From Ectothiorhodospiraceae bacterium (GTDB lineage Bacteria; Pseudomonadota; Gammaproteobacteria; XJ16; Halofilaceae): 41,283 bases of DNA. The notes below the pieces were generated by a model that saw only the letters and a program-made list of their open reading frames with translations, did no database searches and was not told the DNA's origin. Location: contig SLKC01000058.1 in assembly GCA_007134775.1 (NCBI GenBank), forward strand, positions 1 to 41,283, read 5' to 3'. The position numbers and the translations under genes are program-made. The first letter of the stretch is position 1; the number at the start of each line of letters is the position of its first letter. Shown here one piece after another: positions 15,508 to 32,483 of this stretch.

Positions 15508-16431
15508 ATGTCGATGGCCGACCGCGATGGTGTCATCTGGCTCGACGGCGAGCTGGTCCCCTGGCGCGACGCGCGCGTTCACGTCCTCACCCACACGCTG
15601 CACTACGGCATGGGCGTATTCGAGGGTGTGCGCGCCTATAGCACCGACAACGGTGCGGCGATCTTTCGCCTCCATGCCCATACGCGCCGGTTGTTCGATT
15701 CGGCGCGCATCATGCGCATGACCATTCCCTGGGACATGGAGACGCTGAACGAAGCGCAGCGGACCGTGGTGCGCGAGAATGGCCTCGAGTCCGCCTACAT
15801 CCGGCCCATGTGCTTTCTCGGCTCCGAGGGCATGGGGCTGCGCGCGGACAATCTGCGTGTGCATACGATGGTCGCGGCCTGGCACTGGGGCGCCTACCTC
15901 GGCGACGAGAGCATCGAGCGCGGTATCCGCATCAAGACCTCGTCGTATACGCGCCACCACGTCAACATCTCGATGTGCAAGGCCAAGGCGAACGGCCACT
16001 ACATCAACTCGATGCTGGCGTTGCAGGAGGCCACGCAGGATGGCTACGACGAGGCGATGCTGCTCGACAACGAGGGCTATGTCGCCGAGGGCAGCGGCGA
16101 GAATATCTTCATCGTCCACGACGGTACGCTGTACACGCCGGAGTTGACGTCCGCGCTCAACGGCATCACGCGCGACACCCTCCTGCACTTCGCGCAGGAG
16201 GCCGGCATTCCCGTGGTCGAGAAGCGCATCACCCGCGATGAGGTCTATATCGCCGACGAGGCCTTCTTCACCGGCACCGCGGCCGAGGTCACGCCGATCC
16301 GCGAGGTCGACAACCGCCCCATCGGCAACGGCAGCCGCGGGCCGGTCACCGAGCGGTTGCAGAAGATGTACTTCGACCAGGTCGAGGGCCGCCGCAGCCA
16401 GTATCCGGACTGGCTGACGCCTGTGCGGTAG
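15508..16431 (+). CDS. ilvE: Branched-chain amino acid aminotransferase
   Basis: A 307-residue fold-type IV PLP aminotransferase that makes Leu, Ile and Val from their 2-oxo acids with glutamate as donor. Visible family marks are HTLHYGMGVFEGVRAY, RLHAHTRRLFDSA, CFLGSEGMGL, the PLP-lysine region MCKAKANGHYINSMLA, EGSGENIF, and FFTGTAAEVTPI at the C-terminus. The ATG at 15508 has AGGAG 9 nt upstream; the frame extends into the glnE end, where an earlier start is unlikely. In many gammaproteobacteria ilvE lies directly before LPS core genes, as here apart from the inserted cassette. Confidence 0.97.
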   Translation: MSMADRDGVIWLDGELVPWRDARVHVLTHTLHYGMGVFEGVRAYSTDNGAAIFRLHAHTRRLFDSARIMRMTIPWDMETLNEAQRTVVRENGLESAYIRPMCFLGSEGMGLRADNLRVHTMVAAWHWGAYLGDESIERGIRIKTSSYTRHHVNISMCKAKANGHYINSMLALQEATQDGYDEAMLLDNEGYVAEGSGENIFIVHDGTLYTPELTSALNGITRDTLLHFAQEAGIPVVEKRITRDEVYIADEAFFTGTAAEVTPIREVDNRPIGNGSRGPVTERLQKMYFDQVEGRRSQYPDWLTPVR

Positions 16432-16436
16432 GGTAG

Positions 16437-16466
16437 GAACCACGAAACCCACGAAAGGCACGAAAA
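16437..16466 (+). repeat. Left inverted repeat of the GxxExxY cassette
   Basis: After GAA, three consecutive 9-bp units read CCACGAAAC, CCACGAAAG and GCACGAAAA. The block is the reverse complement of 16911-16940 except at two positions (12 and 22). Confidence 0.9.
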
Positions 16467-16501
16467 GGAATCATTCAACAGAAAGCAGGAGCGACCATGC
16501 G

Positions 16502-16903
16502 ATGGAGCGCGAGAGCCGGGGATCAGGCGGGAAAATTCGGTCGAGGGATGAGGTCTACGAGATCCAGGGAGCGGTGTTCACGGTCTACCGCGAAATGGGC
16601 TGTGGATTTCTCGAAGCAGTGTACCAGGAGTGCATGGAACGAGAACTCGGACGTCGGGGAATGGGGTACCGGAGTCAGCCGGCGCTGCAACTCCATTATC
16701 GCGGCGAACCGCTCGAGCAGGTGTATCGACCGGATTTCATTTGCGAGGGCGATGTCATCTTGGAGCTGAAAGCTGTGAGGCAGATTGGCGAAGAGCACAA
16801 GGCCCAGGTGCTCAATTACATGAAGGCGGCGGGAATGCGAGTCGGCCTGCTCGCCAACTTCGGGGCCTACCCGAAGGCTACTGTCCAGCGGTTTGTCTTG
16901 TAA
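16502..16903 (+). CDS. GxxExxY protein (PDDEXK_3 nuclease-like)
   Basis: A 133-residue protein carrying the family motif GFLEAVY (GxxExxY, about residues 35-41) in an amphipathic helix. A nuclease-like core follows: RPDFICEGDVILELKAV, giving the Asp...Glu-x-Lys of the PD-(D/E)xK superfamily. The C-terminus GLLANFGAYP also fits. The biochemical function of the family is not established; DNA or RNA cleavage is an inference from the fold. The start ATG at 16502 follows AGGAG at 16487-16491; an ATG at 16497 is in another frame. It is the only gene of the inverted-repeat cassette, and its stop is 7 bp before the right repeat. Confidence 0.9.
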   Translation: MERESRGSGGKIRSRDEVYEIQGAVFTVYREMGCGFLEAVYQECMERELGRRGMGYRSQPALQLHYRGEPLEQVYRPDFICEGDVILELKAVRQIGEEHKAQVLNYMKAAGMRVGLLANFGAYPKATVQRFVL

Positions 16904-16910
16904 TACCGGA

Positions 16911-16940
16911 TTTTCGTGCTTTTCGTGGATTTCGTGGTTC
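16911..16940 (-). repeat. Right inverted repeat of the GxxExxY cassette
   Basis: On the minus strand it again reads as three 9-bp units: CCACGAAAT, CCACGAAAA and GCACGAAAA after GAA. It is the inverted partner of 16437-16466. Confidence 0.9.
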
Positions 16941-17178: not shown

Positions 17179-18030
17179 GTGATGGAGACCGCCGGCGTCC
17201 GCAGACGCGGGCCGCTGCGCAAGGCGGTCCAGTTCATCCGGCGCCGCTGGCGGCGTTGGCGCGCCGACGTACATATCGTCTCCTTCCCCAAGTGTGGGCG
17301 CACGTGGCTGGTCCTGCTGATTGCCACCGTCCTCCAGAAGCACTACGGCATCCGCACACGCAAGCCGCTGCGATTGCGCGGCTACGCCTGGCGCCGACGC
17401 GAGATTCCCTACATCCTCCAGCACCATGACGGTGGGCCCGAGTTCCAGCGCCCGGATGAGCTGCCCACGGACAAGGGGTTCTACGCCGGCAAGCGCGTCG
17501 TCTTTCTGGTTCGCGATCCGCGGGATGTCCTCGTCTCCACGTATTTCCAAAAGAGCCGGCGCAATTACAATTTTGAAGGCAGTCTGAGCGACTACGTCCA
17601 CCATCCGGTGGGCGGGATCGAGACCATTGTTCGTTTCTACAACATCTGGGCGACCCATCGTGACGTGCCGCGCGCCTTCCTGCTACTGACCTATGAGGAT
17701 CTGCATCGCGACACGGTCGGCGAGCTCCGTCGCGTCATCGAATTCCTCGGTCTGAGTGGCGTTGCGGATGCGACGCTGGAGCGAGCCGCGGAATACTGCC
17801 GGTTCGACAACATGCGCCGCCTTGAGGCGGGCAACGAGCTGGGCAGCTCGGCGCTTGCAGCGCGTGATGCGAACGATGAGGAGACCTTCAAGACCCGCAA
17901 GGGCCAGGTCGGCGGTTACACGGAGTACCTCTCGGCCGAGGACATCGCCTACATCGATGCGGTAATCGACGCGCAGCTCGATCCCCTCTACGCGATGTAT
18001 CGGCGTTCGGCTACAGGAGCGCGGACATGA
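17179..18030 (+). CDS. Sulfotransferase 1 (Sulfotransfer_1 type)
   Basis: A 283-residue sulfotransferase that should move sulfate from PAPS to an acceptor. The 5'-phosphosulfate loop is SFPKCGRTWL (about residues 35-44), the 3'-phosphate site is VFLVRDPRDVLVSTYF, and a C-terminal RKGQVGGY matches the RKGxxG PAPS-binding motif. The N-terminus is strongly basic with no membrane helix, so it is cytoplasmic or membrane-associated. The start is GTG 17179, immediately after the previous stop, or the adjacent ATG 17182; no clear ribosome-binding site is seen. It opens the nine-gene operon of sulfotransferases and glycosyltransferases. The acceptor is unknown. Confidence 0.88.
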   Translation: MMETAGVRRRGPLRKAVQFIRRRWRRWRADVHIVSFPKCGRTWLVLLIATVLQKHYGIRTRKPLRLRGYAWRRREIPYILQHHDGGPEFQRPDELPTDKGFYAGKRVVFLVRDPRDVLVSTYFQKSRRNYNFEGSLSDYVHHPVGGIETIVRFYNIWATHRDVPRAFLLLTYEDLHRDTVGELRRVIEFLGLSGVADATLERAAEYCRFDNMRRLEAGNELGSSALAARDANDEETFKTRKGQVGGYTEYLSAEDIAYIDAVIDAQLDPLYAMYRRSATGART

Positions 18031-18761
18031 TCATCGGTCACCGGCACCGCTTCATCTTCATCAAAACGCGCAAGACCGCGGGCAGCAGTGTCGAGATCGC
18101 CCTGTCGCGGATCTGCGGCGAGGGCGACGTGGTCACGCCGCTGATCGAGCGCCTCGGTGAGGAGGAGCAGCGCCGCGCGGAGGGCGGCTATGGCCCGGCC
18201 GGTTACGAGAAATCAGTGGGCGAGCACCGCGGCTTCAAGGAGTGGAAGCGGCTGCTCTTCTACGGTCGTCGCTCACCGCGCTTTGGCGAGCACGCGACCG
18301 CGGCCGAGATCCGCGATCGGGTCGGGCCGGAGGTCTGGGACCGATATTACAAGTTCAGTCTGGAGCGCAATCCCTGGGATCGGGCGGTCTCGCGCTACTA
18401 CTGGCAGAAGTACCGGTGGGAGCGCAAGCCGCGCAAAGAGCCCTTCCCCGGGATCGACGAGTATCTGCGCTGGCTCGAGCAGGAGAAGCCGCACTGGATC
18501 AGCAACTGGAGTCATTACGCGATCGGTGACGATCTCGCCGTCGATGGCATGCTGTTCTACGAGACGCTGAGCGCGGATCTGGCCACGCTCGCCGAGCGCC
18601 TGGGTGTCGCGGCGGAGCAGATCGCGTTGCCGCGCGCCCGCGCCAAGGGCGGTTACCGCAGCGATCGGCGTCACTACACCGAGGTGCTCGGCAGTGATGA
18701 GCGCGAACGCGTGGCCCGCCTGTGCGCGCGGGAGATCGAGGCCTTTGGCTACACCTTCTGA
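18027..18761 (+). CDS. Sulfotransferase 2 (Sulfotransfer_2 type)
   Basis: A 244-residue protein of the carbohydrate sulfotransferase type. The PAPS loop is FIKTRKTAGSSVEIAL near the N-terminus and the 3'-phosphate site is FSLERNPWDRAVSRYYW. It begins MIIGHRHRFIFI, close to the start of the sulfotransferases at 21056 and 24929, which points to common descent. It ends with REIEAFGYTF, nearly the same as the 21056 protein (REIEAFGYDF). The ATG overlaps the upstream stop (ATGA) and AGGAG lies about 7 nt upstream. The acceptor is probably a sugar made by the neighbouring glycosyltransferases. Confidence 0.88.
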   Translation: MIIGHRHRFIFIKTRKTAGSSVEIALSRICGEGDVVTPLIERLGEEEQRRAEGGYGPAGYEKSVGEHRGFKEWKRLLFYGRRSPRFGEHATAAEIRDRVGPEVWDRYYKFSLERNPWDRAVSRYYWQKYRWERKPRKEPFPGIDEYLRWLEQEKPHWISNWSHYAIGDDLAVDGMLFYETLSADLATLAERLGVAAEQIALPRARAKGGYRSDRRHYTEVLGSDERERVARLCAREIEAFGYTF

Positions 18762-19899
18762 GTGCGCGCACGGGGCCGCGGCCACGGACAGGGCGGGGCC
18801 GCGTCTGGCGATCGTCGGGCCGATCAAGTCCTGGGGTGGGATCGAGGGCAAGATTGTGACCCTCTGCCGGGAGTTCGCCGAGCGCGGCGTGCAGATCGAT
18901 CTCGTGCTGTTGCGTGGCGGCGAGGTGCCCTACCCGGACCGCCTCGATGCGCGCGTGCAGGTGCACCATCTGGCAACGCGGTCGAAGCGCGACGGCGTGC
19001 CGGCGCTGCGCGCCTGGCTCGCGCGCGAACGCCCCGATGCCGTGCTCACGCTGAAGGATCACGGTGCCCAGGTTGCGCTGCTCGCCTGTCTGCTGGGACG
19101 ACTCGACGTGCCGGTCTACGTGAAGGTGACGAACACGCTGAGCGTCGTCGCGCGCCGGCGCCTGCAGCGCTGGCTGATTCGCCGACTCTATCCGCGGGCC
19201 GCCGGTGTCATCGGCAACAGCGCGGGGGTGGTCGCGGATCTGCAGGCACAGTTCGCGCTGCCCCCGGCCCGGCTGCACTGTATCCACAATCCCACGGTCA
19301 CGGACGACTTCCCCGCGCGTGCGGCGGCACCCATCGATCATCCCTGGCTGGCGAGCGATGCGGATGTGCCGGTCGTGGTCGGTGTCGGGCGGTTCACCCC
19401 GCAGAAGGATTTCCCGCTGCTGCTGCGCGCCTTCGCGCGGCTGCGGAGGGAGCGGCACTGCCGCCTTGTGTTGCTCGGTGACGGGGCCGACCGCGCGGCC
19501 CTGGAGGCGGAGATCCGGGGGCTCGGCCTCAGCGACATTGTCGACTTGCCCGGTTTCGTGCCGGATGCGCTGCCCTGGATCGCGCGCGCGGCGCTGTTCG
19601 TCCTCTCTTCGCGCTACGAAGGGCTGAGCAATGTCCTGATCGAGGCGCTCGCCGTGGGTACGCCGGTCGTCGCGACCGACTGTCCCTCGGGCTCGGCGGA
19701 GATCCTTGAGCAGGGGCGGTGGGGGCGGCTCGTGCCGGTCGGCGATGAGCCGGCGCTCGCCGCGGCGATGCAGGCTCAGCTAGAGGACCCGATCGCGGGC
19801 AAACTCCCCGCGAACGCCGTCGACCGCTTCCGCGCCGGGCCCGTGGCGGAGCGCTATCTCCGGGTCATGGGCCTGGCGCCTCCGGGAGGGGAGGCATGA
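18745..19899 (+). CDS. Glycosyltransferase family 4, copy 1
   Basis: A GT-B enzyme of 384 residues when started at TTG 18745, which overlaps the end of sulfotransferase 2 by 17 nt. This start is chosen because GGAG lies 10 nt upstream, no ATG precedes LAIVGPIKSWGG at a sensible distance, and the length then equals its paralogues. GT4 marks are VGRFTPQKDFPLLLRAFA (donor domain), LPGFVPDALPWIARA, and EGLSNVLIE, the E-x7-E motif, followed by GTPVVATDCPSG. The segment LYPRAAGVIGNSAGV links the two domains. It transfers a sugar from a nucleotide donor with retention; the sugar cannot be predicted. Confidence 0.9.
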   Translation: MATPSECAHGAAATDRAGPRLAIVGPIKSWGGIEGKIVTLCREFAERGVQIDLVLLRGGEVPYPDRLDARVQVHHLATRSKRDGVPALRAWLARERPDAVLTLKDHGAQVALLACLLGRLDVPVYVKVTNTLSVVARRRLQRWLIRRLYPRAAGVIGNSAGVVADLQAQFALPPARLHCIHNPTVTDDFPARAAAPIDHPWLASDADVPVVVGVGRFTPQKDFPLLLRAFARLRRERHCRLVLLGDGADRAALEAEIRGLGLSDIVDLPGFVPDALPWIARAALFVLSSRYEGLSNVLIEALAVGTPVVATDCPSGSAEILEQGRWGRLVPVGDEPALAAAMQAQLEDPIAGKLPANAVDRFRAGPVAERYLRVMGLAPPGGEA

Positions 19900-21059
19900 A
19901 CGGGGAACGGCGTCCCGACATCGCGATCTTCGGCAGCTTCCGGGCCACCGGCGGCACCTATCGGCGCCTGACCAATCAGATCCACGTCTGGCACCGCCTC
20001 GGCTATCGGGTCGACCTGGTGGCGTTCCGCCGCGGCGTCATGTTCTACGCCGACGAGATGCCCGATTCGGTCCGCTTCGTCGATCTCGGCACCCGCGGCA
20101 AGCTGCCGACGCTGTTCGCCCTCTGGCGCTACCTGCGCCGGGTGCAGCCCGAGGTCGTGCTGTCGATCATGCACCTGGGCAACACGGTCCTGGCCCGCTG
20201 CATCGATCTGCCCGGTGTGACCAGCCGCTGCTTCTTGAGCGTGCCCAATACCTACGGCGAATCGGGGAAGGCGAACTCGCCGGGCCGGCGCCGGCGCAAG
20301 TTCCGCCAGATCCGCCGGCTCTATCCCCGCGCCGCCGGCGTGATCGCGGTCTCCGAGGGCGTGCGCGACGATCTCGAGCGCACCGTCGGCCTGCGCGGTG
20401 CACGGCTGCACACGATCTATAATGGATCGATCGGACACAACCTGGCCGAGCGCGCCCGTGAGCCCGTGAGCCATCCCTGGCTGGCGGCGCCTGATCGCCC
20501 GGTCTTTCTCTCGGCAGGCGGCCTGCGCCTGCAGAAGGACTTCGCGACCCTGCTTCGGGCCTTCGCCGGGGTGCGCGCCGAGCGGCCGGCACGCCTGATC
20601 ATCGTCGGCGAGGGCCCGGAGCGCGCGAACCTCGAGGTCCTGGTGAACGAGCTGGGCTTGGACGCCGATGTCGACCTGCCCGGTTTCGTCGACAACCCCT
20701 ACGCCTGGATGGCGCGGGCCGATGTCTTCGTGCTGTCGTCGCGGTGGGAGGGGTTGGTCAACGTCGTGGCCGAGGCGCTCGGCGTGGGGGTGCCGGTTGT
20801 CTCCACCGACTGCCCCAGTGGTCCGCGGGAGATCCTGGGACAGGGCCGTTACGGACGCCTGGTGCCGATGGCGGACCCCGAGGCGCTGGCCGCGGCGATG
20901 GCGGCAACGCTGGACGACGGCGGACCGGTGTTCGATCGCGACGAGGCGGTCCGCCCGTTCACGGCCGAGTACGCCGCGCGGGCCTATCTCGACGCCTTCG
21001 GGCTGGATCGGCACACTGCCGCGGGGCATTGCGCCCGCCCCGGACGGAGCCCGCGATGA
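19896..21059 (+). CDS. Glycosyltransferase family 4, copy 2
   Basis: A 387-residue GT-B protein. The N-terminal acceptor domain begins PDIAIFGSFRATGGTYRRL; the donor domain carries GLRLQKDFATLLRAFA, LPGFVDNPYAWMARADVF and EGLVNVVAE (E-x7-E), followed by GVPVVSTDCPSGPREIL. It shares LYPRAAGVIAVSEGV with copy 1, showing paralogy. The ATG overlaps the previous stop (ATGA). It probably extends the same glycan as its neighbours. Confidence 0.92.
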   Translation: MNGERRPDIAIFGSFRATGGTYRRLTNQIHVWHRLGYRVDLVAFRRGVMFYADEMPDSVRFVDLGTRGKLPTLFALWRYLRRVQPEVVLSIMHLGNTVLARCIDLPGVTSRCFLSVPNTYGESGKANSPGRRRRKFRQIRRLYPRAAGVIAVSEGVRDDLERTVGLRGARLHTIYNGSIGHNLAERAREPVSHPWLAAPDRPVFLSAGGLRLQKDFATLLRAFAGVRAERPARLIIVGEGPERANLEVLVNELGLDADVDLPGFVDNPYAWMARADVFVLSSRWEGLVNVVAEALGVGVPVVSTDCPSGPREILGQGRYGRLVPMADPEALAAAMAATLDDGGPVFDRDEAVRPFTAEYAARAYLDAFGLDRHTAAGHCARPGRSPR

Positions 21060-21802
21060 TCATCAGCCACCGCCATCGCTACATCTTCCTCCATTGCCGC
21101 AAATCGGCCGGTAGTGCGGTCAAGGTGTCGCTGGCGCGCGATCTCGGCCCGCTCGATCTCCAGGTGGGTGGCTGGTCGGATGTCATCAACAATGGGGGCC
21201 GGCCCAATCTGCGCGCCCTCGCCGGTTTCGGTCGCCCGCGCCATGCGTGGTTCTACGCCAAGTCGCGGCTATCGGGCGTGCCGCCGACGAAGTCGTTCAA
21301 CCGCATGACCAAGCGCGTCTGGCGCAAGCGCTACCGCATGGGCATGTTCCCGCCTGCGCGCAAGATGAAGGCGGCGTTCCCGCGCGAGTGGCAGAGCTAT
21401 CACAAGTTCTGCATCGTGCGGAATCCCTTCGATCGGGTGGTCTCCGACTACTTCTGGCGAACCAAGGGGGAGGAGGACCCTCCCACATTCGCCGAGTTCG
21501 TCGACGCGATGGTGGCCGGTGACACCCTCGACGGAACCCTGCGCGGCGACTATTCGAACTGGGACATGTACACCATTGATGACGAGATCGCCGTCGACGA
21601 TGTCATCCGCTTCGAGAACCTCGAGTCGGAGCTGCGCGCGGTCCTCGATCGCATCGGGCTGGCCTGGGACGGCTGGCTGCCGCGGGCGAAGGCGGGTGGG
21701 AAACGACCTCGGGACTACCGCGAGCTGTACGGGCCGCGGCAGATCGAGCAGGTCGGGGCGCTGTGTCGTCGCGAGATCGAGGCCTTCGGCTATGACTTCT
21801 GA
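21056..21802 (+). CDS. Sulfotransferase 3 (Sulfotransfer_2 type)
   Basis: A 248-residue sulfotransferase. It begins MIISHRHRYIFLHCRKSAGSAV, of which the part from HCRKSAGSAV is the PAPS loop. The 3'-phosphate site is FCIVRNPFDRVVSDYFW, and RFENLESEL with a late REIEAFGYDF completes the family pattern. The ATG overlaps the preceding stop (ATGA) with GGAG upstream; the longer frame to the left is a shadow of the glycosyltransferase. The 12-bp gap after its stop is the only gap of this size inside the operon. Confidence 0.88.
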   Translation: MIISHRHRYIFLHCRKSAGSAVKVSLARDLGPLDLQVGGWSDVINNGGRPNLRALAGFGRPRHAWFYAKSRLSGVPPTKSFNRMTKRVWRKRYRMGMFPPARKMKAAFPREWQSYHKFCIVRNPFDRVVSDYFWRTKGEEDPPTFAEFVDAMVAGDTLDGTLRGDYSNWDMYTIDDEIAVDDVIRFENLESELRAVLDRIGLAWDGWLPRAKAGGKRPRDYRELYGPRQIEQVGALCRREIEAFGYDF

Positions 21803-21814
21803 GGGGCCGGGTCG

Positions 21815-22939
21815 GTGGTGAACGCCCGCCGCATCGCCCTGCTGTTCGCGACCTCGGGCCACAGCGGCGTCGATCGCGTGCTCGCCAACCTGCTGCCCGA
21901 GCTCGGTGCCGCCCCGCACGCCTTCGACCTGCTCGGCATCCGCAATCACGGGCCCTACCTCGACGCCGTTCCGGGCAACGTGCGCCGGATCACGCTGCCG
22001 GCCGCGCATCGCAACACGGTCCTGCCGGGCCTGATACGCTATCTGCGCCGCGAGCGCCCGGCGGCCTTGTTGACCGCCAGCCACCGCCTCAATCGGGCGG
22101 CGGTGATCGCCCGCGTCGTGGCCGGTGTGCCGCTGCACCTGACCCTGCGCATGGGCATGTCGCTGTCCGGCCTGGCCGTCGAACAGGGTCCTCGCCGCAG
22201 TGCCCGGCTGTTTCGCTCCATGCGCCGCTGGTATCCGCGTGCGGACGCGGTCGTCGCCCCCTCGGCCGGTGTGGCCGACGATCTTGAGCGCCTGGCCGGT
22301 GTCGGCGCCGAGCGCCTGCACGTGATCCCGAATCCCATCGTCAACGCCCGCTTCGAGGCGCTGGCCGCGGAGGTGCTCGATGATCCGTGGCTGGCCCCCG
22401 GCGCGCCGCCGGTGCTCCTCGGCGCGGGGGCGCTCGAGCCGCGCAAGGATTTCGCCACGCTCGTGCGCGCCTTCGCCCGGCTGCGGCGCGAGCGCGCCTG
22501 CCGCCTGATCATCCTCGGCGAGGGACGGGAGCGGCCGCGGCTGGAGGCGCTGGCGGCGGAGCTCGGCATCGCCGAGGATCTGCGGCTGCCGGGCCACGTC
22601 GCCAATCCCTATCCCTGGATGGCGCGCGCCGCCGTCTTCGCCCTGACCTCGCGGCGCGAGGGCTCGGGCGCGGTACTCGTCGAGGCGCTGGCTTGCGGCA
22701 CGCCCGTGGTCGCCACGGACTGTCCCAGCGGCCCGGCCGAGACCCTGCAGCAGGGGCGCATCGGGCCGCTGGTACCGGTCGCCGATGACGCCGCCCTGGC
22801 CTCGGCGCTGAGTTGCCTGCTCGGCGACCCGCCCCCGGCGGCTGAGCTGCGTGCCGCGGCCGAGCCGTTCCGTGCAGACGTGGCCGCGCGCAGGTATCTT
22901 GCCGCGCTGGGCCTGGAGCCAACAGGGGAGAGTCCATGA
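21815..22939 (+). CDS. Glycosyltransferase family 4, copy 3
   Basis: A 374-residue GT4 enzyme starting at GTG 21815 (or GTG 21818). Visible marks are ALLFATSGHSGVDRVLANLL at the N-terminus, WYPRADAVVAPSAGVADDLE between the domains, ALEPRKDFATLVRAFARL, LPGHVANPYPWMARA, and EGSGAVLVE (E-x7-E) followed by GTPVVATDCPSGPAETL. It belongs to the same paralogous set as copies 1, 2 and 4. The donor sugar is unknown. Confidence 0.9.
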   Translation: MVNARRIALLFATSGHSGVDRVLANLLPELGAAPHAFDLLGIRNHGPYLDAVPGNVRRITLPAAHRNTVLPGLIRYLRRERPAALLTASHRLNRAAVIARVVAGVPLHLTLRMGMSLSGLAVEQGPRRSARLFRSMRRWYPRADAVVAPSAGVADDLERLAGVGAERLHVIPNPIVNARFEALAAEVLDDPWLAPGAPPVLLGAGALEPRKDFATLVRAFARLRRERACRLIILGEGRERPRLEALAAELGIAEDLRLPGHVANPYPWMARAAVFALTSRREGSGAVLVEALACGTPVVATDCPSGPAETLQQGRIGPLVPVADDAALASALSCLLGDPPPAAELRAAAEPFRADVAARRYLAALGLEPTGESP

Positions 22940-23805
22940 GTGCGGCGACGCCGCCCGTGATCATCATCGGCATGCACCGCTCGGGCACCAGCCTGCTCAC
23001 GCGCGTGCTGCAGCAGTCGGGCCTGTTCATGGGGCTGGGCGCGAGCCGCAACGAGGAGGCGGCGTTCACCAACGCCGTCAACGCCTGGATCTTCCGCCAG
23101 GCGTCGGCGACCTGGGATCGGCCGGCGTCGATGGACGAGCTGCTCGCCGATGACGCCGTGCGGCCCTGGCTCACCGACTACATCGAGGGCATCGTCAACG
23201 GCCCCGCCGCGTTGCGTTTCCTGGGCGCGCGGCGCTGGCTGCGCAGCCGCGGCTTTCACGGCCTCGCCGAGCCGTGGGGCTGGAAGGATCCGCGCAATAC
23301 CTGGACGCTGCCGCTGTGGCGCGAACTCTTCCCCGAGGCCCGGGTGCTGCACATCGTCCGCCACGGCGTCGATGTCGCCGCCAGCCTGCGCGCGCGGCGC
23401 GAGCGCGAAGTCGTCGACCGCGTCGCCCGCTATCGCCGGCACCGGCGCCTGCATCGGGCGAACCCGCTGGCGCCGAAGCGGCGCGGCTTCGGCCCGCAGG
23501 CGCCGGTCCGCACGCTCGCCGGCGGCTTCGAGCTCTGGGAGCGCTATGTCGAGCGCTCGCGGGCCCATCTCGCCACACTGGGCGAGAACGGCCTCGAGGT
23601 GGCCTACGAGGATCTGCTAGCCGCCCCCGTCCGTGAGCTTGAGCGCGCACTCGCGTTCTGCGGCTGCCATCCGGGCACGGCCGCCATCGCGCAGGCGGCG
23701 GCGCGTTTCGATGCGAGCCGTGCCCACGCCTGGCGCGGCGATGCGGAGCTCGTCGCATTCGCTGAGGAGATGACCGGGCGCCTCGCCGCGCAGGGCTATG
23801 CATGA
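22936..23805 (+). CDS. Sulfotransferase 4 (Sulfotransfer_3-like)
   Basis: A 289-residue protein with PAPS loop IIGMHRSGTSLLTRVLQ near the N-terminus and HIVRHGVDVAASLRAR as the 3'-phosphate site. GWKDPRN and VAYEDLL are typical of this bacterial sulfotransferase subgroup. It lacks the M-I-I-x-H-x-H start of sulfotransferases 2, 3 and 5, so it came from a different branch. The ATG overlaps the previous stop (ATGA). The acceptor is unknown. Confidence 0.85.
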   Translation: MSAATPPVIIIGMHRSGTSLLTRVLQQSGLFMGLGASRNEEAAFTNAVNAWIFRQASATWDRPASMDELLADDAVRPWLTDYIEGIVNGPAALRFLGARRWLRSRGFHGLAEPWGWKDPRNTWTLPLWRELFPEARVLHIVRHGVDVAASLRARREREVVDRVARYRRHRRLHRANPLAPKRRGFGPQAPVRTLAGGFELWERYVERSRAHLATLGENGLEVAYEDLLAAPVRELERALAFCGCHPGTAAIAQAAARFDASRAHAWRGDAELVAFAEEMTGRLAAQGYA

Positions 23806-24935
23806 GCCCGCACATCGCCATCCTGCTCTCCTACTCCGGTGACGGGGGCGTCGAGCGCATGGTGAACCAGTTGGTCGCGGGCCTGCTCGCGGCCGGTTGC
23901 CGCGTCGACCTGTTGGTATTGAAGGCGCGCGGTGGTCACTTCGCGGGCGTACCCGAAGGCGCCCGGGTGGTCCGCCTCGACTCGGGGCATGCGCGCCTCG
24001 CTGTCAGCGGGATCGCGCGCTATCTGCGCGCCGAGCGTCCGCCTGTGCTGTTGGCAGCGAAGGATCGAGCCGGGCGTGCCGCACTGCGGGCGCGGGCTCG
24101 CGCCGGCGTCGAGACGCGCGTGTTCATCCGCTTGGGCAATACGCTGTCGGCATCGCTGGCGGGGCGCAATCCGCTGCGGCGCTGGCTGCGCTATGCCGCG
24201 GTCCGCCGCGCCTGGCCGCGCGCCGACGGCATCATCGCGGTCTCCCGCGGTGTGGCCGAGGACGTGGTGGCTACCGCCGGCGTGGCGCGGGAACGCGTCC
24301 ACGTGCTGCCCAACCCCGTGGTCACGCCGGCGCTGTTCGAGCGCGCCGAGGAGCCGATCGCGCATCCGTGGCCGCAGGTCGGCGGTGAGCCGGTGATCCT
24401 CGGCGTCGGTCGCCTCGACCGGCAGAAGGATTTCGCCACACTGTTGCGCGCTTTTGCGCGCCTGCTCGAGCGGCGCCCGGCCGAGTTGGTCATCCTGGGC
24501 GAGGGCGAAGAGCGCCCGGCCCTGGAACGCCTGGCCTCATCGCTGGGTATCGCCGGGCATGTGCTCCTGCCCGGGTTCGTCACCAACCCCTATGCGGCGA
24601 TGGCGCGCGCCGACCTGTTTGTGCTCTCTTCGGCCTGGGAGGGATCGCCCAATGTGCTGACCGAGGCGCTGGCGCTGGGCGTGCCCGTCGTGGCCACGGA
24701 CTGTCGCAGCGGCCCCCGCGAGATCCTCGACGGGGGGCGCGTGGCACCGCTGGTGCCGGTCGGCGATGTCGCGGCGATGGCCGCGGCCATGCAGCGCACG
24801 CTGCAGGCGCCGCCCTCTTCGGCTACCCTGCGCGCCGCGGTCGCGGAGCACGACCGCGACCGGGCGACCGCGCGCTACCTCGAAGTGCTCGGCGGCGAGG
24901 ACCGGACGAGCGCTACCGGAGCGATGCCATGCTGA
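23802..24935 (+). CDS. Glycosyltransferase family 4, copy 4
   Basis: A 377-residue GT4 enzyme. It begins HIAILLSYSGDGGVERMVNQ; later come AWPRADGIIAVSRGVAEDV, GVGRLDRQKDFATLLRAFAR, LPGFVTNPYAAMARADLF and EGSPNVLTE (E-x7-E) with GVPVVATDCRSGPREIL. The start overlaps the previous stop (ATGA), and its own stop overlaps sulfotransferase 5 by 7 nt. It is closest in pattern to copies 1 and 2. Confidence 0.92.
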   Translation: MSPHIAILLSYSGDGGVERMVNQLVAGLLAAGCRVDLLVLKARGGHFAGVPEGARVVRLDSGHARLAVSGIARYLRAERPPVLLAAKDRAGRAALRARARAGVETRVFIRLGNTLSASLAGRNPLRRWLRYAAVRRAWPRADGIIAVSRGVAEDVVATAGVARERVHVLPNPVVTPALFERAEEPIAHPWPQVGGEPVILGVGRLDRQKDFATLLRAFARLLERRPAELVILGEGEERPALERLASSLGIAGHVLLPGFVTNPYAAMARADLFVLSSAWEGSPNVLTEALALGVPVVATDCRSGPREILDGGRVAPLVPVGDVAAMAAAMQRTLQAPPSSATLRAAVAEHDRDRATARYLEVLGGEDRTSATGAMPC

Positions 24936-25594
24936 TCTCGCATACGCACAACTTCCTCTTCGTCCACATCGCGAAGACCGGTGGCACCAGCGTACGCGCC
25001 GCGCTGCGCCGCTACCGCTGGTCGGGGCGCTACGCCCCGGCGCTGTTCGTCGCCAGCATGATCAGCCAGATGACGCGGCCGCGCCATCGCCTTGGTGTCA
25101 AGTTCCCGCGCCACGCCAAGGCGATCGCGGCGCAGGAGATGCTGCCGGCGGAGGTCTTCGACGCGCTGTTCAAGTTCGTCTTCGTGCGCAACCCCTGGGA
25201 CCTGCAGGTCAGCTCGTTCCACCATATCCGGCGGGAGAAGCCGGCCAGCCTCCACGGAGCCGAGACCTTTGCGGAGTTCCTGCGCCTGAAGTTCGACGAC
25301 CAGCGGCCCTACGACTTCATGCTCGACATCTCGCGCGAGCTGCAGTCCGACTACATCGTCGATCTGCACGGCAATACCATCGTCGACCGGGTCGGTCACT
25401 ACGAGACGCTGCAGGACGATTTCCACGCTATCTGCGACCGCATCGGCCTCCCGCGTCTCGACCTCCCCCACCGCCGTCGGGCCGTCGACCGCGACGATTA
25501 CCGCCGCTACTATGACGCCGAGACGGCTGAACTCGTCGCCCGCCACTACGCGCCCGATATTGAGCGCCTCGGCTACCGGTTCGATCCGGGCTGA
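24929..25594 (+). CDS. Sulfotransferase 5 (Sulfotransfer_2 type)
   Basis: A 221-residue sulfotransferase, last gene of the operon. It begins MLISHTHNFLFVHIAKTGGT, the end of which is the PAPS loop; FVFVRNPWDLQVSSFHHI is the 3'-phosphate site. GHYETLQDDFHAIC and the C-terminal RHYAPDIERLGYRF match the family. It shares the M-x-I-S-H-x-H start with sulfotransferases 2 and 3. A GC-rich hairpin follows the gene. Confidence 0.87.
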   Translation: MLISHTHNFLFVHIAKTGGTSVRAALRRYRWSGRYAPALFVASMISQMTRPRHRLGVKFPRHAKAIAAQEMLPAEVFDALFKFVFVRNPWDLQVSSFHHIRREKPASLHGAETFAEFLRLKFDDQRPYDFMLDISRELQSDYIVDLHGNTIVDRVGHYETLQDDFHAICDRIGLPRLDLPHRRRAVDRDDYRRYYDAETAELVARHYAPDIERLGYRFDPG

Positions 25595-25711: not shown

Positions 25712-27151
25712 ATGCAACTGACTGCGGAGGCCTTCGCGGGCGCGCGCGTACTGCTCGTCGGCGATGTCATGCTCGACCGCTACTGGTCGGGTGGGACGAA
25801 CCGGATCTCGCCGGAGGCGCCCGTGCCCGTGGTCGGCCTGCGCGAGTTCCGCGATCTTCCCGGCGGTGCGGCGAACGTCGCGCTCAATGTCGCCGCGCTC
25901 GGCGCCCGGGCGACGCTGGTCGGGTTCACTGGGGCCGATGAATCGGCGCGGACGTTGCGTGACGCGCTCGATGCAACCATGGTGGACCACCACCTGATCG
26001 CGGTCGACGGCTCGCCGACGATCACCAAGCTGCGCGTGCTCAGCCGCAATCAGCACCTGATGCGCCTCGATATCGAGGACGGTTTCCAGGGTGCCGACCA
26101 CGAGCGCCTGGTGACCACGGTGGAGGCGTATCTGCCCAAGAGCGATATCCTCGTGCTCTCCGACTACGCCAAGGGCACCCTGGCGCCGGTGGCCCCGCGC
26201 CTGATCGCGGCCGCGCAGGCCGCGGGTGTGCGGGTGCTCGTGGACCCGAAGGGTATCGACTACGGGCGCTACCGCGGGGCCGACCTGGTGACACCGAACC
26301 GGCGCGAGTTCGAACTGGTCGTCGGTCGGGCGACCGACAACGCCGATCTTGAGCGCCGCGCCCACGCCCTGATCGAGGAGTTCGACCTGGGCGCCCTGCT
26401 CGTCACCCGCAGTGAGGAGGGCATGAGCCTGGTCCCGCGCGCGGGCGAGGCGCTGCATCTGCCCGCCCATCGCCGCGAGGTCTACGACGTCACGGGGGCG
26501 GGCGACACCGTCATCGGCGTCATGGCGGCCGCGCTCGGTGCGGGCATGGCCGCCGCCGATGGTGTGCATCTCGCTAACCACGCCGCCGCGATCGTAGTCA
26601 CCCGCCTGGGTGCGGCGCAGGTGAGTGCCGACGAACTCGTCGCCGCCCTCGCCGAAGCGGCGCGCGCCCACGCGCCCGGCGGCGTGCTCGGTGTCGATGA
26701 ACTCCAGCGCCGCGTGGCGGCGGCACACGAGCGGGGCGAAACCGTGGTGATGACCAACGGCTGCTTCGACCTGCTGCATATAGGCCACCTCGAGTCGCTG
26801 CGCGCGATGCGCGCGTTCGGCGACCGGCTCGTTGTCGCCGTCAACGATGACGCTTCGGTGCAGCGGCTCAAGGGCCCGGGACGTCCCCTCATCCCGATCG
26901 CCGAGCGCATGGCGCTGCTGGCGGCGCTCGACTGCGTCGACTGGGTGGTTGCCTTTGCCGAAGACACGCCGGCCGGCCTCATCAGTCGCGTACGCCCCGA
27001 TGTGCTCGCGAAGGGCGGCGATTACAGCCCGACCGAGATCGCCGGCCACGACATCGTCACCAGCTACGGTGGCCGCGTGGTGACGGTGGACTATCGTGAG
27101 GGTCTGTCGACCACGGCACTGCTCGAACGCATCCGCGAGAGTCGCTCCTGA
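25712..27151 (+). CDS. hldE: Bifunctional heptose-7-phosphate kinase / heptose-1-phosphate adenylyltransferase
   Basis: HldE carries out two steps toward ADP-heptose for the LPS inner core. The N-terminal PfkB-type kinase (about 1-320) shows VGDVMLDRYW, PGGAANVALN and the catalytic DVTGAGDTVIGV. The C-terminal nucleotidyltransferase (about 345-479) has VMTNGCFDLLHIGHL with the HxGH motif, and later KGGDYSPTEI and the STTALLERI end. The 479-residue length is normal and the fusion is the standard gammaproteobacterial form. The ATG at 25712 has GGAG about 9 nt upstream. It confirms that the cell makes heptose-containing LPS. Confidence 0.97.
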   Translation: MQLTAEAFAGARVLLVGDVMLDRYWSGGTNRISPEAPVPVVGLREFRDLPGGAANVALNVAALGARATLVGFTGADESARTLRDALDATMVDHHLIAVDGSPTITKLRVLSRNQHLMRLDIEDGFQGADHERLVTTVEAYLPKSDILVLSDYAKGTLAPVAPRLIAAAQAAGVRVLVDPKGIDYGRYRGADLVTPNRREFELVVGRATDNADLERRAHALIEEFDLGALLVTRSEEGMSLVPRAGEALHLPAHRREVYDVTGAGDTVIGVMAAALGAGMAAADGVHLANHAAAIVVTRLGAAQVSADELVAALAEAARAHAPGGVLGVDELQRRVAAAHERGETVVMTNGCFDLLHIGHLESLRAMRAFGDRLVVAVNDDASVQRLKGPGRPLIPIAERMALLAALDCVDWVVAFAEDTPAGLISRVRPDVLAKGGDYSPTEIAGHDIVTSYGGRVVTVDYREGLSTTALLERIRESRS

Positions 27152-28319: not shown

Positions 28320-29390
28320 TTAGTGCGCGCTTCGGGCGAACCACTGGTCGAGGCGGTCGGTGACATCCTCGACGGTGATGCGCGCCATCGCCTGCGGGTT
28401 GCGCACTCGCTGGCCCCAGCGGGCCTGGTCGACGGTGAGCCCGGTCTCCGCTGCAAGCGCGTCGGGGTAGCGGTCGACGCACCAGTCGCGCCAGCCGTAG
28501 GGGCCCGTGCGCGCCGGGTTCGAGGTGGCGTAGAGGCCGATGACGGGGGTACCGACGGCATTGGCGATGTGGGCGGGGCCGGTGTCGGGGGCGATGGTCA
28601 CGGCGGCGCGGGCGAGCACCGCGGCGAGCTGCTGCGGTGTCGTCGCGCCGACGAGATTGGTCACCGGCGCGTCGGCCTGATCGTGGATGGCCGCTGCCAT
28701 GGCGCGTTCCGCCTCCGCCGGCCCCCCGGTCAGCACGGTCGCCAGGCCGTGGACGCGCCAGGCATGCGTGGCTACCGCGGCGTAGCGTTGCGCCGACCAG
28801 TTGCGCCAGTTCTGCGGCCGCGCGCTCGTGCAGGCGTTGATCGCGAGGAAGCGGCCCGCGGGCGGTGTGTGCTCGGCGGCGAAGGCCTGCGCAGTGTCGC
28901 TGAGGGGCAGATCCCAGCGCCACACGCGCTCGTCCACGCCGAGTACGTCGAGGAAGTCGAGGAAGCCGTCAAGGACATGGGCGCGCGGGTTGGGGGCGAT
29001 GCGATGATCGATGAACAGGCCGTGGCCATCGCGACTGCGGGCACGGTCGAAGCCCACACGGTGGCGTGCCCGCACAAGGCGGCCGGCGACGTTGGCCCGC
29101 AGCGCGACCTGCATCTGCAGCAGCGCGTCGAAGCGCCTGCCGCGCAGGGCGCGCGCGAGCTCGGTGTAACCCCGGGCGCCGGCGCCCTTGTCGAAGACGA
29201 TGAACTCGACACCGGGGAGGTCGCCGACCAGGGCGTGTTCGAGGCGCCCGATGATCCAGGTCAGGCGCCACTGCGGCCGTGCGTGCTGCAGGGTGCGCAC
29301 GAAGGGCAGCATGTGGGTGACATCGCCGAGCGCGGAGAGGCGCACGATGCAGAGGTCGGCCCGGGCGGGCAGGTGCACGGGGTGGCTCAT
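28320..29390 (-). CDS. ADP-heptose:LPS heptosyltransferase (GT9)
   Basis: A 356-residue GT9 enzyme which adds L-glycero-D-manno-heptose to the Kdo-lipid A core from the cytoplasmic side. Marks are IVRLSALGDVTHMLPFVRTL at the N-terminus, the acceptor-domain RHRVGFDRARSRDG, and the donor-domain APDTGPAHIANAVGTPVIGL (ADP-heptose binding) with YATSNPARTGPYG. The sequence pattern fits heptosyltransferase I (WaaC/RfaC) or a close relative; WaaF cannot be ruled out, so no symbol is given. It is divergent from kdkA and convergent with the Ldh2-type gene. Confidence 0.9.
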   Translation of the reverse strand: MSHPVHLPARADLCIVRLSALGDVTHMLPFVRTLQHARPQWRLTWIIGRLEHALVGDLPGVEFIVFDKGAGARGYTELARALRGRRFDALLQMQVALRANVAGRLVRARHRVGFDRARSRDGHGLFIDHRIAPNPRAHVLDGFLDFLDVLGVDERVWRWDLPLSDTAQAFAAEHTPPAGRFLAINACTSARPQNWRNWSAQRYAAVATHAWRVHGLATVLTGGPAEAERAMAAAIHDQADAPVTNLVGATTPQQLAAVLARAAVTIAPDTGPAHIANAVGTPVIGLYATSNPARTGPYGWRDWCVDRYPDALAAETGLTVDQARWGQRVRNPQAMARITVEDVTDRLDQWFARSAH

Positions 29391-29458: not shown

Positions 29459-30241
29459 GTGGCTCCCCTCTGCGCGCGGTGTCGTGTGGTGACGGCCGCG
29501 CTGCAGCAGCGAGCGCTCCCGGACGGGTTGCTGCTCTGGCCCGCGCAGCGTGGCGAGCCGCCAGCGCCCGAGTGGTTCGATCCGGATTGGCTCGCGCGCG
29601 CGGACTGCCTGCGCGGGCAGGCGACCGGGCGCGGCACCACGTACTTTGCCGTGGTCGGCGACCGCGATGTCGTCCTGCGCCACTATCGTCGTGGTGGTGC
29701 TATCCGCCATCTGCTCGCCGATCGCTATCTCTGGACCGGGCTGACGCGCTGCCGGCCGTGGCGCGAACTCGCCGTTCAGGCCGCGCTCCACGAGCGCGGG
29801 CTGCCCGTGCCGCGGCCCATCGGCGCGCGGGTGCGCCGCCCGCGCCGCTGGGACCCCTTCTACCGCGCCGATCTGCTCAGTGAACGCCTCGGCGGTACGC
29901 GCACCCTGGCGCAATGCCTGGCGAGCGAAGGGCTTGCGCCCAACGCCTGGGCAGAGATCGGCCGGGTGCTCGCCGCATTCCACGATGCCGGCCTTGAGCA
30001 CGCCGACCTCAATGCCCACAACATCCTGCTCGATGACGCGGGTTCGGTGTCGCTAATCGATTTCGATCGTGGCCGCCTGCACACCGGCCCGGGTCGCTGG
30101 GCGCCGGCGAATCTGGTGCGCCTGCGCCGCTCGCTGGACAAGCTCGCGGGTGAAGGCGGACCGTTCGCCTTCGATGACGGCGACTGGGACCGGCTGACGG
30201 CTGGATACGAGCGGGGAAGGCGCTGGGCCGAGCGGCGCTGA
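29459..30241 (+). CDS. kdkA: 3-deoxy-D-manno-octulosonic acid (Kdo) kinase
   Basis: KdkA phosphorylates O-4 of Kdo on Kdo-lipid IVA in organisms whose core has a single Kdo. The 260-residue protein matches the family closely: GRGTTYF, VVLRHYRRGG, GLPVPRPIGARV, the catalytic loop HADLNAHNILLD, and the metal-binding LIDFDRGR, then NLVRLRRSLDK. It belongs to the WaaP/eukaryotic-kinase-like superfamily. The start is uncertain: GTG 29459, or GTG 29486/29489 nearer to the conserved region; no clear ribosome-binding site decides. It ends 31 bp from the convergent lpxL-waaA fusion. Confidence 0.92.
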   Translation: MAPLCARCRVVTAALQQRALPDGLLLWPAQRGEPPAPEWFDPDWLARADCLRGQATGRGTTYFAVVGDRDVVLRHYRRGGAIRHLLADRYLWTGLTRCRPWRELAVQAALHERGLPVPRPIGARVRRPRRWDPFYRADLLSERLGGTRTLAQCLASEGLAPNAWAEIGRVLAAFHDAGLEHADLNAHNILLDDAGSVSLIDFDRGRLHTGPGRWAPANLVRLRRSLDKLAGEGGPFAFDDGDWDRLTAGYERGRRWAERR

Positions 30242-30272: not shown

Positions 30273-32483
30273 TCAGAGCTCCATGGCGCGCAATTGCTCA
30301 AGATAGCGTTCGACCACGTCGTCGTCGCCGGCGACGGCCTGGCGGGCGCGCGCCGCGATGGCGTCCCGCTCCGCAGGGTGGTCGAGCCAGTGGATGGCGG
30401 TGGCGATCGCGGTGGGGGCATCTTCCGCGCGGACGACGCCGCCGGCTGCCTCAAGGTGCTCGGTCTCGTCGCGGAAGTTGTCCATGTGCGGGCCGACCAC
30501 GAGGGCACGCCCGAGGCGGGCGGGCTCGAGCAGGTTCTGGCCGCCGTGCGGGATGAATGACCCGCCCATGATCACGACATCGGCGCCCGCCATCAGGGCG
30601 GTGAGTTCACCCATGGTATCGGCGAGGTAGACATTGGTGGTTGCGGTCACGGGCTCGCCGCGGCTGCGGCGGGCGACGACCAGGCCCTCCTCGGCCAGCG
30701 TGTGCGCGATGGGGTCGCCGCGTTCGGGGTGGCGCGGGGCGATGGCGAGCACATGGCTGTCGCGTTGCGCGGCGCGCCAGGCGCGCGCGAGCTGCAGTTC
30801 CTCGTCGTGGTGGGTGGATGCGGCCAGGACGAAGGGGCGCCCCGGATCGATGGCTGCAACGGCATCGCCGGTGTCGGCGTACTTGAGGTTGCCGATTGCG
30901 AGCGTGCGCTTGCGCGAGCCGCCGAGGTGGCGGAAGGCGTCGGCGTCGTCCTCCGAGCGGGCCAGGATCAGGCGGCAGCGTTTAAGGCAGTCGCGCAGTG
31001 TCGGGCGCAGCCAGCGCGGTGCCCGACGCGTGCGCGCCGACAGGCGGCCATTGACGATCACGATGGGCACGGCGGCGTGGTCGAGTTCGGCGTAGAGCCA
31101 GGGCCAGAGCTCGGTCTCCATGACCAGCGCCACGCGTGGCGCCAGCCCGCGCACGAAACGGCGGACCGGGCGGGGGCGGTCGACGGGCAGGTAGCAGATC
31201 GCCGTACCCGCGGGGGCGCGCTGTTCGGCGACGGCGTGGCCCGTGGGCGTGTTCGTCGATAGCAGCAGTGGCTCGCTGTGCTCGCCCGCGAGGCGTTGCA
31301 GCAGCGGCATGACGGCGGCGACCTCGCCCACCGAGGCGGCGTGGATCCAGATCGCGCCCCGCGGCAGAGCCTCGAGCGCCCGGCCGCGGCGCTGCTGACG
31401 GTAGCCCGGGCCGCCATCGCGCGCCGCGCGGCGCAGGGTGTGGAGTGCAAATAGCGGCGCGAGCGCCAGGCTGGCGACGCGGTAGGCCCACGGCGGCGGC
31501 TTCAGCGGTGTCGCGAAGGGGATGCGGTCGAACTTGCTGCGACCGCGCTTGAAGCGTTGATGCAACCAGAAGTACTGCGCCGGCTCATATTCGCGGATGT
31601 GCTCGGCCATGTGCTCGTTGACGCGTGCGGTATCGGCGGCGACATCGCCGCTGGGGAAATCCTCCAGGGGCGGGCGGAAGATGAGACGGTAACCGCGCCC
31701 GTCGCGGCGGCGCAGCGGCAGCAGCAGCAACACGCGGGCCCCCGTCATCGCGGCCAGCCGGCTCGTGCCCGCGGAGGTGACCACGTCCATGCCGAAGAAG
31801 GGGGCCACGACCGTACCGCGCGCCCGGCGCAGGGTCTGATCCGGGGCGAAGAAGAGGATCCGGCCCGCGCGCAGCGCACGGATCATGCCGCGCAGGTCGC
31901 TGCTGTCGACGATGATGTCGGAGTGGCGGCGGCGCCCGCGCAACAGCAGCTTGTGGATCAGGGGATGGGCCGGCGGTTCAAAGCTCGCGCAGAGGTTGTA
32001 GCGATCCGCGATGCCGGTGCAGCCGATCTCAAGGGCAGTATAGTGCGGTGTCACCATGAGCACGCCGCGCCCTCCTTCCTGTGCGCGCCGAACGTGCTCC
32101 TCCCCTTCGACCGTGCACAACCCCCGGAACCAGGCTGGACTGCGCCACCAGGTGATCGCCGTCTCGAACACGGAGCGCCCGACATGCTCGAACTGCTCGC
32201 GCACCATGGCGTCGCGCCGATCGCGGTCGAGTTCGGGAAAGCAGAGCTGGAGATTGAGTTCCGCGGCGCGGCTCCGACCCGGTAGCAGGTAGTAGAGGCC
32301 ACGACCCAGGGCGCGGCCCAGGCCCATCTGCAATCGCCACGGCAGCAGCACGAGCAGGCGTAGCACGCCCAGGGCGAGCCAGACCGGCCAGTGGCGCGGA
32401 TCGAGCCAGTCGCGACGGGTCAGGCGGGCGGAGCCGGCGGAGTCGCTGGGCAGTTTGGCCGGGTTGCCGGCGTCGGTGGTCAC
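30273..32483 (-). CDS. Fusion: LpxL-type lipid A acyltransferase + Kdo transferase WaaA
   Basis: A single 736-residue frame holds two LPS enzymes. Residues 1 to about 325 are a lipid A late acyltransferase: a membrane-anchor segment LGVLRLLVLLPWRL, the HX4E catalytic motif in TPHYTALEIG (His147, Glu152) and FFAPDQTLRR. From about 330 it is WaaA (KdtA): a second hydrophobic anchor ending in PGYRQQRRG, HAASVGE with the catalytic Glu (about 387), METELWPWLY, GNLKYAD, APRHPERGDPI and GGSFIPHGGQNLLEPA. All WaaA hallmarks are present and there is no stop or frameshift between the halves. The GTG start overlaps the upstream stop (GTGA). WaaA adds Kdo and the acyltransferase then acts on the Kdo-bearing product, so consecutive steps are joined. 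Confidence 0.93.
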   Translation of the reverse strand: MTTDAGNPAKLPSDSAGSARLTRRDWLDPRHWPVWLALGVLRLLVLLPWRLQMGLGRALGRGLYYLLPGRSRAAELNLQLCFPELDRDRRDAMVREQFEHVGRSVFETAITWWRSPAWFRGLCTVEGEEHVRRAQEGGRGVLMVTPHYTALEIGCTGIADRYNLCASFEPPAHPLIHKLLLRGRRRHSDIIVDSSDLRGMIRALRAGRILFFAPDQTLRRARGTVVAPFFGMDVVTSAGTSRLAAMTGARVLLLLPLRRRDGRGYRLIFRPPLEDFPSGDVAADTARVNEHMAEHIREYEPAQYFWLHQRFKRGRSKFDRIPFATPLKPPPWAYRVASLALAPLFALHTLRRAARDGGPGYRQQRRGRALEALPRGAIWIHAASVGEVAAVMPLLQRLAGEHSEPLLLSTNTPTGHAVAEQRAPAGTAICYLPVDRPRPVRRFVRGLAPRVALVMETELWPWLYAELDHAAVPIVIVNGRLSARTRRAPRWLRPTLRDCLKRCRLILARSEDDADAFRHLGGSRKRTLAIGNLKYADTGDAVAAIDPGRPFVLAASTHHDEELQLARAWRAAQRDSHVLAIAPRHPERGDPIAHTLAEEGLVVARRSRGEPVTATTNVYLADTMGELTALMAGADVVIMGGSFIPHGGQNLLEPARLGRALVVGPHMDNFRDETEHLEAAGGVVRAEDAPTAIATAIHWLDHPAERDAIAARARQAVAGDDDVVERYLEQLRAMEL

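Follow-up and report, generated by a model that had tools for sequence, protein, structure and literature searches.

What is made by a salt-associated bacterium in which five sulfotransferase genes stand in a row with four glycosyltransferase genes? This question is raised by contig SLKC01000058.1 of an Ectothiorhodospiraceae bacterium (assembly GCA_007134775.1), which was analysed as a window of 41,283 nucleotides. Positions 17182–25594 are occupied by nine open reading frames (ORFs) on the same strand, in the order ST1-ST2-GT1-GT2-ST3-GT3-ST4-GT4-ST5 (ST, sulfotransferase; GT, glycosyltransferase), as seen from the ORF list, the translations and Pfam matches. The operon is located among genes for the 3-deoxy-D-manno-octulosonic acid (Kdo)/heptose core of lipopolysaccharide (LPS), here and in relatives, and it would appear to build and sulfate a variable outer-core or core-attached LPS oligosaccharide, a reading to which we assign, from sequence comparisons, a probability of about 0.6. 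Its last two genes, GT4 and ST5, recur as a pair in several proteobacterial groups.

The operon and its enzymes

All nine genes are encoded on the forward strand. ST1 (17182–18030; 282 amino acids (aa); Sulfotransfer_1, E 2.5e-25) contains the motifs PKCGRTW and RDPRDVLVS. The set of sulfotransferases is completed by ST2 (18027–18761; 244 aa; Sulfotransfer_2, E 1.2e-6; motifs KTAGSSV and RNPWDRAVS), its paralogue ST3 (21056–21802; 248 aa; Sulfotransfer_2, E 1.3e-7; KSAGSAV and RNPFDRVVS), ST4 (22936–23805; 289 aa; Sulfotransfer_3, E 4.9e-22; loop HRSGTS, read by eye) and the conserved ST5 (24929–25594; 221 aa; Sulfotransfer_2, E 2.4e-11). The glycosyltransferases are GT1 (about 18745–19899, with an inferred TTG start; E 5e-35), GT2 (19896–21059; E 1.9e-33), GT3 (21815–22939; E 8.3e-34) and the fourth gene, here called GT4 (23802–24935; E 1.8e-34), which is the conserved partner of ST5. 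All four belong to the GT4 family (Pfam Glyco_trans_1_4, E 2e-33 to 5e-35), have the EX7E motif and are paralogues with 43–48% identity. Initiating transferase, flippase, exporter, nucleotide-sugar or other biosynthetic genes were not found among the nine genes in the ORF list and Pfam matches.

The gene order given in a first-pass annotation was borne out by Pfam, motifs and orthologues elsewhere; since such orthologues occur in other genera, chance ORFs are ruled out. Its statement that almost all genes are joined by ATGA overlaps was slightly generous: five junctions are of this type (ST1/ST2, GT1/GT2, GT2/ST3, GT3/ST4, ST4/GT4), whereas GT4 and ST5 overlap by 7 bp, ST2 and GT1 by about 17 bp (with the inferred TTG start), and ST3 and GT3 are separated by a gap of 12 bp. 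The ORF overlaps suggest that all nine genes are transcribed together. A promoter search gave a single promoter-like match, which was located within ST1 and was not above chance. The G+C content at third codon positions (0.79–0.90) is close to that of the adjoining genes, and composition thus did not support a recent foreign origin.

All five sulfotransferases exceed the curated cut-offs of three Pfam families and have retained both motifs of the binding site for 3'-phosphoadenosine 5'-phosphosulfate (PAPS), i.e., the 5'-phosphosulfate-binding loop and the 3'-phosphate-binding Arg/Ser motif, which are invariant among the relatives of ST5. ST2, ST3 and ST5 are paralogues with 28–36% identity. 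In comparisons with the PDB, ST1 matched cytosolic sulfotransferases with E values down to 2.5e-14, and for ST2 phmmer gave nothing but a chance match to troponin. AlphaFold2 models were built for ST2 and ST5 (predicted local distance difference test scores of 85 and 89, respectively); with both, sulfotransferases were at the top of the Foldseek rows, none of them reaching E ≤ 0.001. The fold was compared by VIA for ST5, by Foldseek only for ST2. Every row shown by VIA for the ST5 model was a sulfotransferase, and the best matches were the heparan-sulfate enzymes NDST1, HS2ST and HS6ST with Z 10–10.7 over 172–191 residues and root mean square deviations of 3.7–5.3 Å (best match: Z 10.7, 191 residues, 4.5 Å). 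Because these outscored the small-molecule SULTs (Z 8–9), the model suggests a glycan as acceptor of ST5. ST5 shares with the three enzymes the fold of PAPS-dependent sulfotransferases; they are, however, eukaryotic Golgi enzymes of about 13–16% identity to ST5, and the substrates are not comparable.

The LPS-core slot in congeners and other classes

On the upstream side the operon is preceded by glnE, ilvE (15508–16431, forward strand; Aminotran_4, E 1e-53), which marks the boundary of the slot, a PDDEXK_3 gene and a small zinc-finger-looking protein without Pfam or NCBIfam match. On the downstream side follow hldE for ADP-heptose synthesis in the LPS core (25712–27151, forward strand; HldE equivalog 656 bits, cut-off 521), an Ldh_2 dehydrogenase gene, a GT9 heptosyltransferase-type gene (28320–29390, reverse strand; Glyco_transf_9, E 6.4e-40), the Kdo kinase gene kdkA (29459–30241, forward strand; equivalog 248 bits, cut-off 142) and an lpxL-waaA fusion (30273–32537, reverse strand), in which Lip_A_acyltrans (E 1.1e-59) and Glycos_transf_N (E 1.1e-49) were matched in one ORF. 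The flanks named earlier, ilvE upstream and hldE, a heptosyltransferase, kdkA and waaA downstream, were therefore confirmed; the Ldh_2 gene after hldE and the fusion of lpxL to waaA are additions.

Two congeners, G001 (contig CAJXKK01, an uncultured Ectothiorhodospiraceae metagenome-assembled genome (MAG)) and G002, share this slot, which in both is bounded by ilvE with the zinc-finger gene on one side and by hldE on the other. In G002 it contains GT2-GT1-GT3-ST4-GT4-ST5 with identities of 50–82% (66% for GT3 and its same-slot counterpart, 66% for ST4), preceded by other sulfotransferases and a Wzy_C protein. The slot of G001 holds five sulfotransferases and largely different glycosyltransferases, with the terminal GT4-ST5 kept (65% and 80%). 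Because both congeners differ upstream, yet keep that pair last, the slot is best described, on gene content, as a variable glycan locus whose GT4-ST5 end is fixed.

The search of related genomes for the same operon, a check proposed with the first-pass annotation, thus gave its GT4-ST5 end in the congeners, and it gave seven orthologues in Desulfurivibrio sp. AMeS2 (Desulfobacterota; locus L089 on a 284-kb contig). There, ST1, ST2, ST4, ST5, GT1, GT2 and GT4 have counterparts with 54–67% identity (65% for ST4), directly after hldE, SIS, HAD, hepT and kdkA genes, the SIS and HAD genes being gmhA/gmhB-like by position. This uncharacterised locus differs from the operon in gene order and by an extra Wzy_C gene. 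The simplest explanation would be that the module moved between classes by horizontal transfer.

A scan of genome contigs with the ST5 family yielded at least 370 relatives. The best 79 loci (up to 20.7 kb) were read, a sample which leans to close relatives, and markers within about 10 kb were counted over 78 ST5 loci. The GT4-ST5 pair was found in many Gammaproteobacteria and in some Betaproteobacteria and Desulfobacterota; a GT4-type gene is directly adjacent to ST5 on the same strand in 35 of the 78 loci. LPS-core-type genes are present in 40 loci, glnE/ilvE in 25, and one or the other in 49. By a rough guess rather than a calculation, no more than a few per cent of random 20-kb stretches would carry markers of this kind. 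A proposal (by eye) to regard the glycosyltransferase next to ST5 in Neiella (L100) as WaaE was unsupported by NCBIfam and was not used.

Most ST5 loci contain one sulfotransferase; at least three were present in about ten loci, and four or five in only a handful of the 79, so that the density in this operon is indeed unusual, as had been stated. Most loci with at least three sulfotransferases belong to Thioalkalivibrio, Ectothiorhodospira, Alkalilimnicola, Aquisalimonas and Desulfurivibrio, which are haloalkaliphilic, soda-lake or saline lineages; the exceptions are Thauera and a Zoogloeaceae MAG. Multiple sulfotransferases are therefore mostly found in saline or soda-lake lineages, a habitat pattern which is confounded with phylogeny. 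A Desulfohalobiaceae MAG from the same metagenome as G001 (CAJXKR01, L087) contains an LPS-type fragment with hepT, GT4, ST5 and ST4, which is due either to transfer or to a binning error.

Proposed product and rival explanations

If the operon acts on the LPS core, its four GT4-family enzymes would add sugars singly in the cytoplasm, from housekeeping sugar nucleotides, onto the growing Kdo/heptose core; each of the five PAPS-dependent sulfotransferases would esterify a specific position on the added sugars, and the sulfated product would be flipped together with the lipid A-core. GT4 and ST5 would carry out a conserved base step, and the genes upstream could be lineage-specific additions, which arose via paralogy and were exchanged between species. 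The sulfated LPS outer core or capsule-like product of the first-pass annotation is in keeping with the position among core genes, which extends to the loci of relatives, and with the resemblance of the ST5 model to heparan-sulfate sulfotransferases; its argument from polymerase absence and the proposed check of PAPS supply fared less well (see below).

Several observations weigh against a core product. Neither glnE/ilvE nor an LPS marker was present in 29 of the 78 ST5 loci, and ST5 is therefore not core-linked everywhere on the map. The modelled fold of ST5 does not predict which acceptor is used. A Wzy_C gene in the module of relatives leaves a lipid-linked route open, and searches of the source assembly (99.6% complete, 201 contigs) gave no adenosine 5'-phosphosulfate (APS) kinase, no Sat-type ATP sulfurylase and no CysD.

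The lipid-linked route is the main rival reading: a sulfated O-antigen-like or capsule-like glycan would be assembled on undecaprenyl diphosphate, flipped, and then polymerised or ligated by Wzx/Wzy/WaaL encoded elsewhere, the location at core genes being incidental or due to ligation. We regard it as rather unlikely, although precedents exist in sulfated capsules and in O-antigen islands rich in sulfotransferases (PMC11641403, PMC11766843, PMC6060240). The absence of polymerase and flippase genes had been taken to favour direct building on the core; this argument is weak, because the corresponding modules of G001, G002 and Desulfurivibrio include a ligase-type Wzy_C gene, and six Wzy_C matches were found elsewhere in the source genome. 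On the other hand, the operon is also devoid of the initiating transferase, exporter and nucleotide-sugar genes of such a pathway, and the conserved GT4-ST5 comes after core genes. Since a WaaL-type gene is normal for a core locus, the Wzy_C gene of the relatives would fit WaaL as well as it fits a route via undecaprenyl diphosphate.

The supply of PAPS, for which cysDNC had been named as the genes to look for, came out negative in this assembly, and APS kinase, Sat and CysD were likewise not found in G001. A PF01507 match was considered as CysD and rejected, since the sole full match in the source genome and in G002, and the sole strong one in G001, is CysH. It could be concluded that PAPS synthesis is truly lacking and that the sulfotransferases are idle relics, or use imported PAPS or another donor. 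This appears improbable, since the five sulfotransferases are intact with their PAPS motifs, and the CysH of the source genome, which has no Fe-S cysteine pairs, passes the cut-off of the PAPS-reductase equivalog; sulfite reductase is present as well, and retention of the two is meaningful only if PAPS is produced. Moreover, G002 possesses a Sat-CysC fusion adjoining a polysaccharide locus. At the syntenic place the contig of G001 ends, and ssb was not found there; in the source genome (C133) other genes follow beyond ssb. Because of the retained PAPS-type CysH and sulfite reductase and the Sat-CysC of the congener, APS kinase and Sat were probably lost to an assembly gap, which is likelier than true absence in a genome of so many contigs.

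Co-occurrence points in the same direction. Among 229 genomes of the class, APS kinase was present in 29 of 36 with ST5-like genes versus 104 of 193 others (p 0.002); with strict ST5 orthologues the figure was 16 of 21 (p 0.06), which is suggestive only. Of the five strict ST5 genomes without APS kinase, four belong to a genus or family in which a sister genome does have it. In 5 of the 78 loci, ST5 has an APS kinase gene at a distance of no more than about 10 kb (one verified by NCBIfam).

Least probable of all is an action of the sulfotransferases on small molecules, exported metabolites or peptides instead of an envelope glycan: ST1 resembles cytosolic small-molecule enzymes in the PDB, and regions with both types of transferases in Salinibacter were linked to sulfonated, glycosylated metabolites (PMC3669384), but the five genes are tightly interleaved with four glycosyltransferase genes, LPS-core synteny extends across several classes, other biosynthetic enzymes are missing from the operon, and ST5 fits glycan sulfotransferases best.

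Known sulfated glycans and further loci

Sulfated surface glycans and sulfation of LPS are already known. LpsS of Sinorhizobium meliloti is described as an LPS sulfotransferase (Cronan and Keating 2004, cited in PMC5498481) and would be a functional analogue of the enzymes proposed here. It is a lone gene outside the LPS-core operon, whereas in this operon five sulfotransferases of three Pfam families are interleaved with four GT4-family genes. LpsS is also PAPS-dependent. Salinibacter ruber, a halophile, has hypervariable O-antigen islands in which sulfotransferases and glycosyltransferases are enriched together, as in the variable surface-glycan region considered here (PMC6060240, PMC3669384); these are of Bacteroidota type and belong to an O-antigen cluster, in contrast to the present operon, which is compact (nine genes), lies in an LPS-core slot and ends in the conserved GT4-ST5 pair. 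In Vibrio sp. KMM 8419 and Cobetia marina KMM 1449, sulfated capsules, which are likewise surface glycans, are encoded by clusters with genes for both enzyme types (PMC11641403, PMC11766843), but these clusters comprise 70–80 genes, including those for PAPS synthesis, nucleotide sugars and an ABC exporter, none of which was found among the nine operon genes or the flanks examined.

The open-access literature searched gave no description of GT4-ST5 as a conserved pair of LPS-core loci, nor of a core operon with five sulfotransferases. Few organisms are known to have sulfated LPS, and its sulfation has been attributed to single enzymes; sulfated cores may be common, yet largely unstudied. Tentatively, at somewhat less than even odds, ST5 and its GT4 partner could represent an undescribed step of LPS-core sulfation in hundreds of genomes, and the operons with several sulfotransferases could provide haloalkaliphiles with a heparan-like, highly sulfated surface, the module having been passed between phyla. 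If true, core sulfation would be a common, testable envelope trait in several proteobacterial groups; it would matter for surface charge at high salinity and for phage receptors, and such operons would be a place to find new carbohydrate sulfotransferases.

Other glycan loci were noticed in the same genomes. Next to the Sat-CysC fusion of G002 are a gene resembling UDP-sugar dehydrogenase genes, a Wzx flippase gene and two further sulfotransferase genes, which together make up a separate sulfated-polysaccharide locus (L045 1837–10054, contig C20). The source genome has a second surface-glycan locus (L080, contig C43) with two or three Wzy_C proteins, another Sulfotransfer_3 gene and, as judged by eye, an ABC flippase-like protein; elsewhere (L047 161–2335, contig C69) it encodes a further sulfotransferase, in which a Sulfotransfer_3 domain is fused to a TPR-repeat protein.

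G001 is probably two strains binned together, as judged from two ST5-hldE copies (L032 14314–16073; L036 1–2065), which share about 85–87% identity and differ from G002 to about the same degree. Short intergenic stretches near the Sat-CysC of G002 match G001 at about a hundred places on many contigs; they belong to a dispersed repeat family of 50–150 nt, which is absent or rare in the source genome.

The LpxL-type acyltransferase and the Kdo transferase WaaA, which form a single ORF of 754 aa in the window, are encoded by two adjacent genes in G001 and G002. Between ilvE and the operon, the PDDEXK_3 gene (16502–16903, 133 aa) lies within a stretch (16437–16940) bounded by 30-nt inverted repeats, which are 93% complementary (CCACGAAA-type). 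The repeat occurs twice more in the source genome and is absent from G001 and G002. The insert is missing from both congeners and looks like a small mobile unit.

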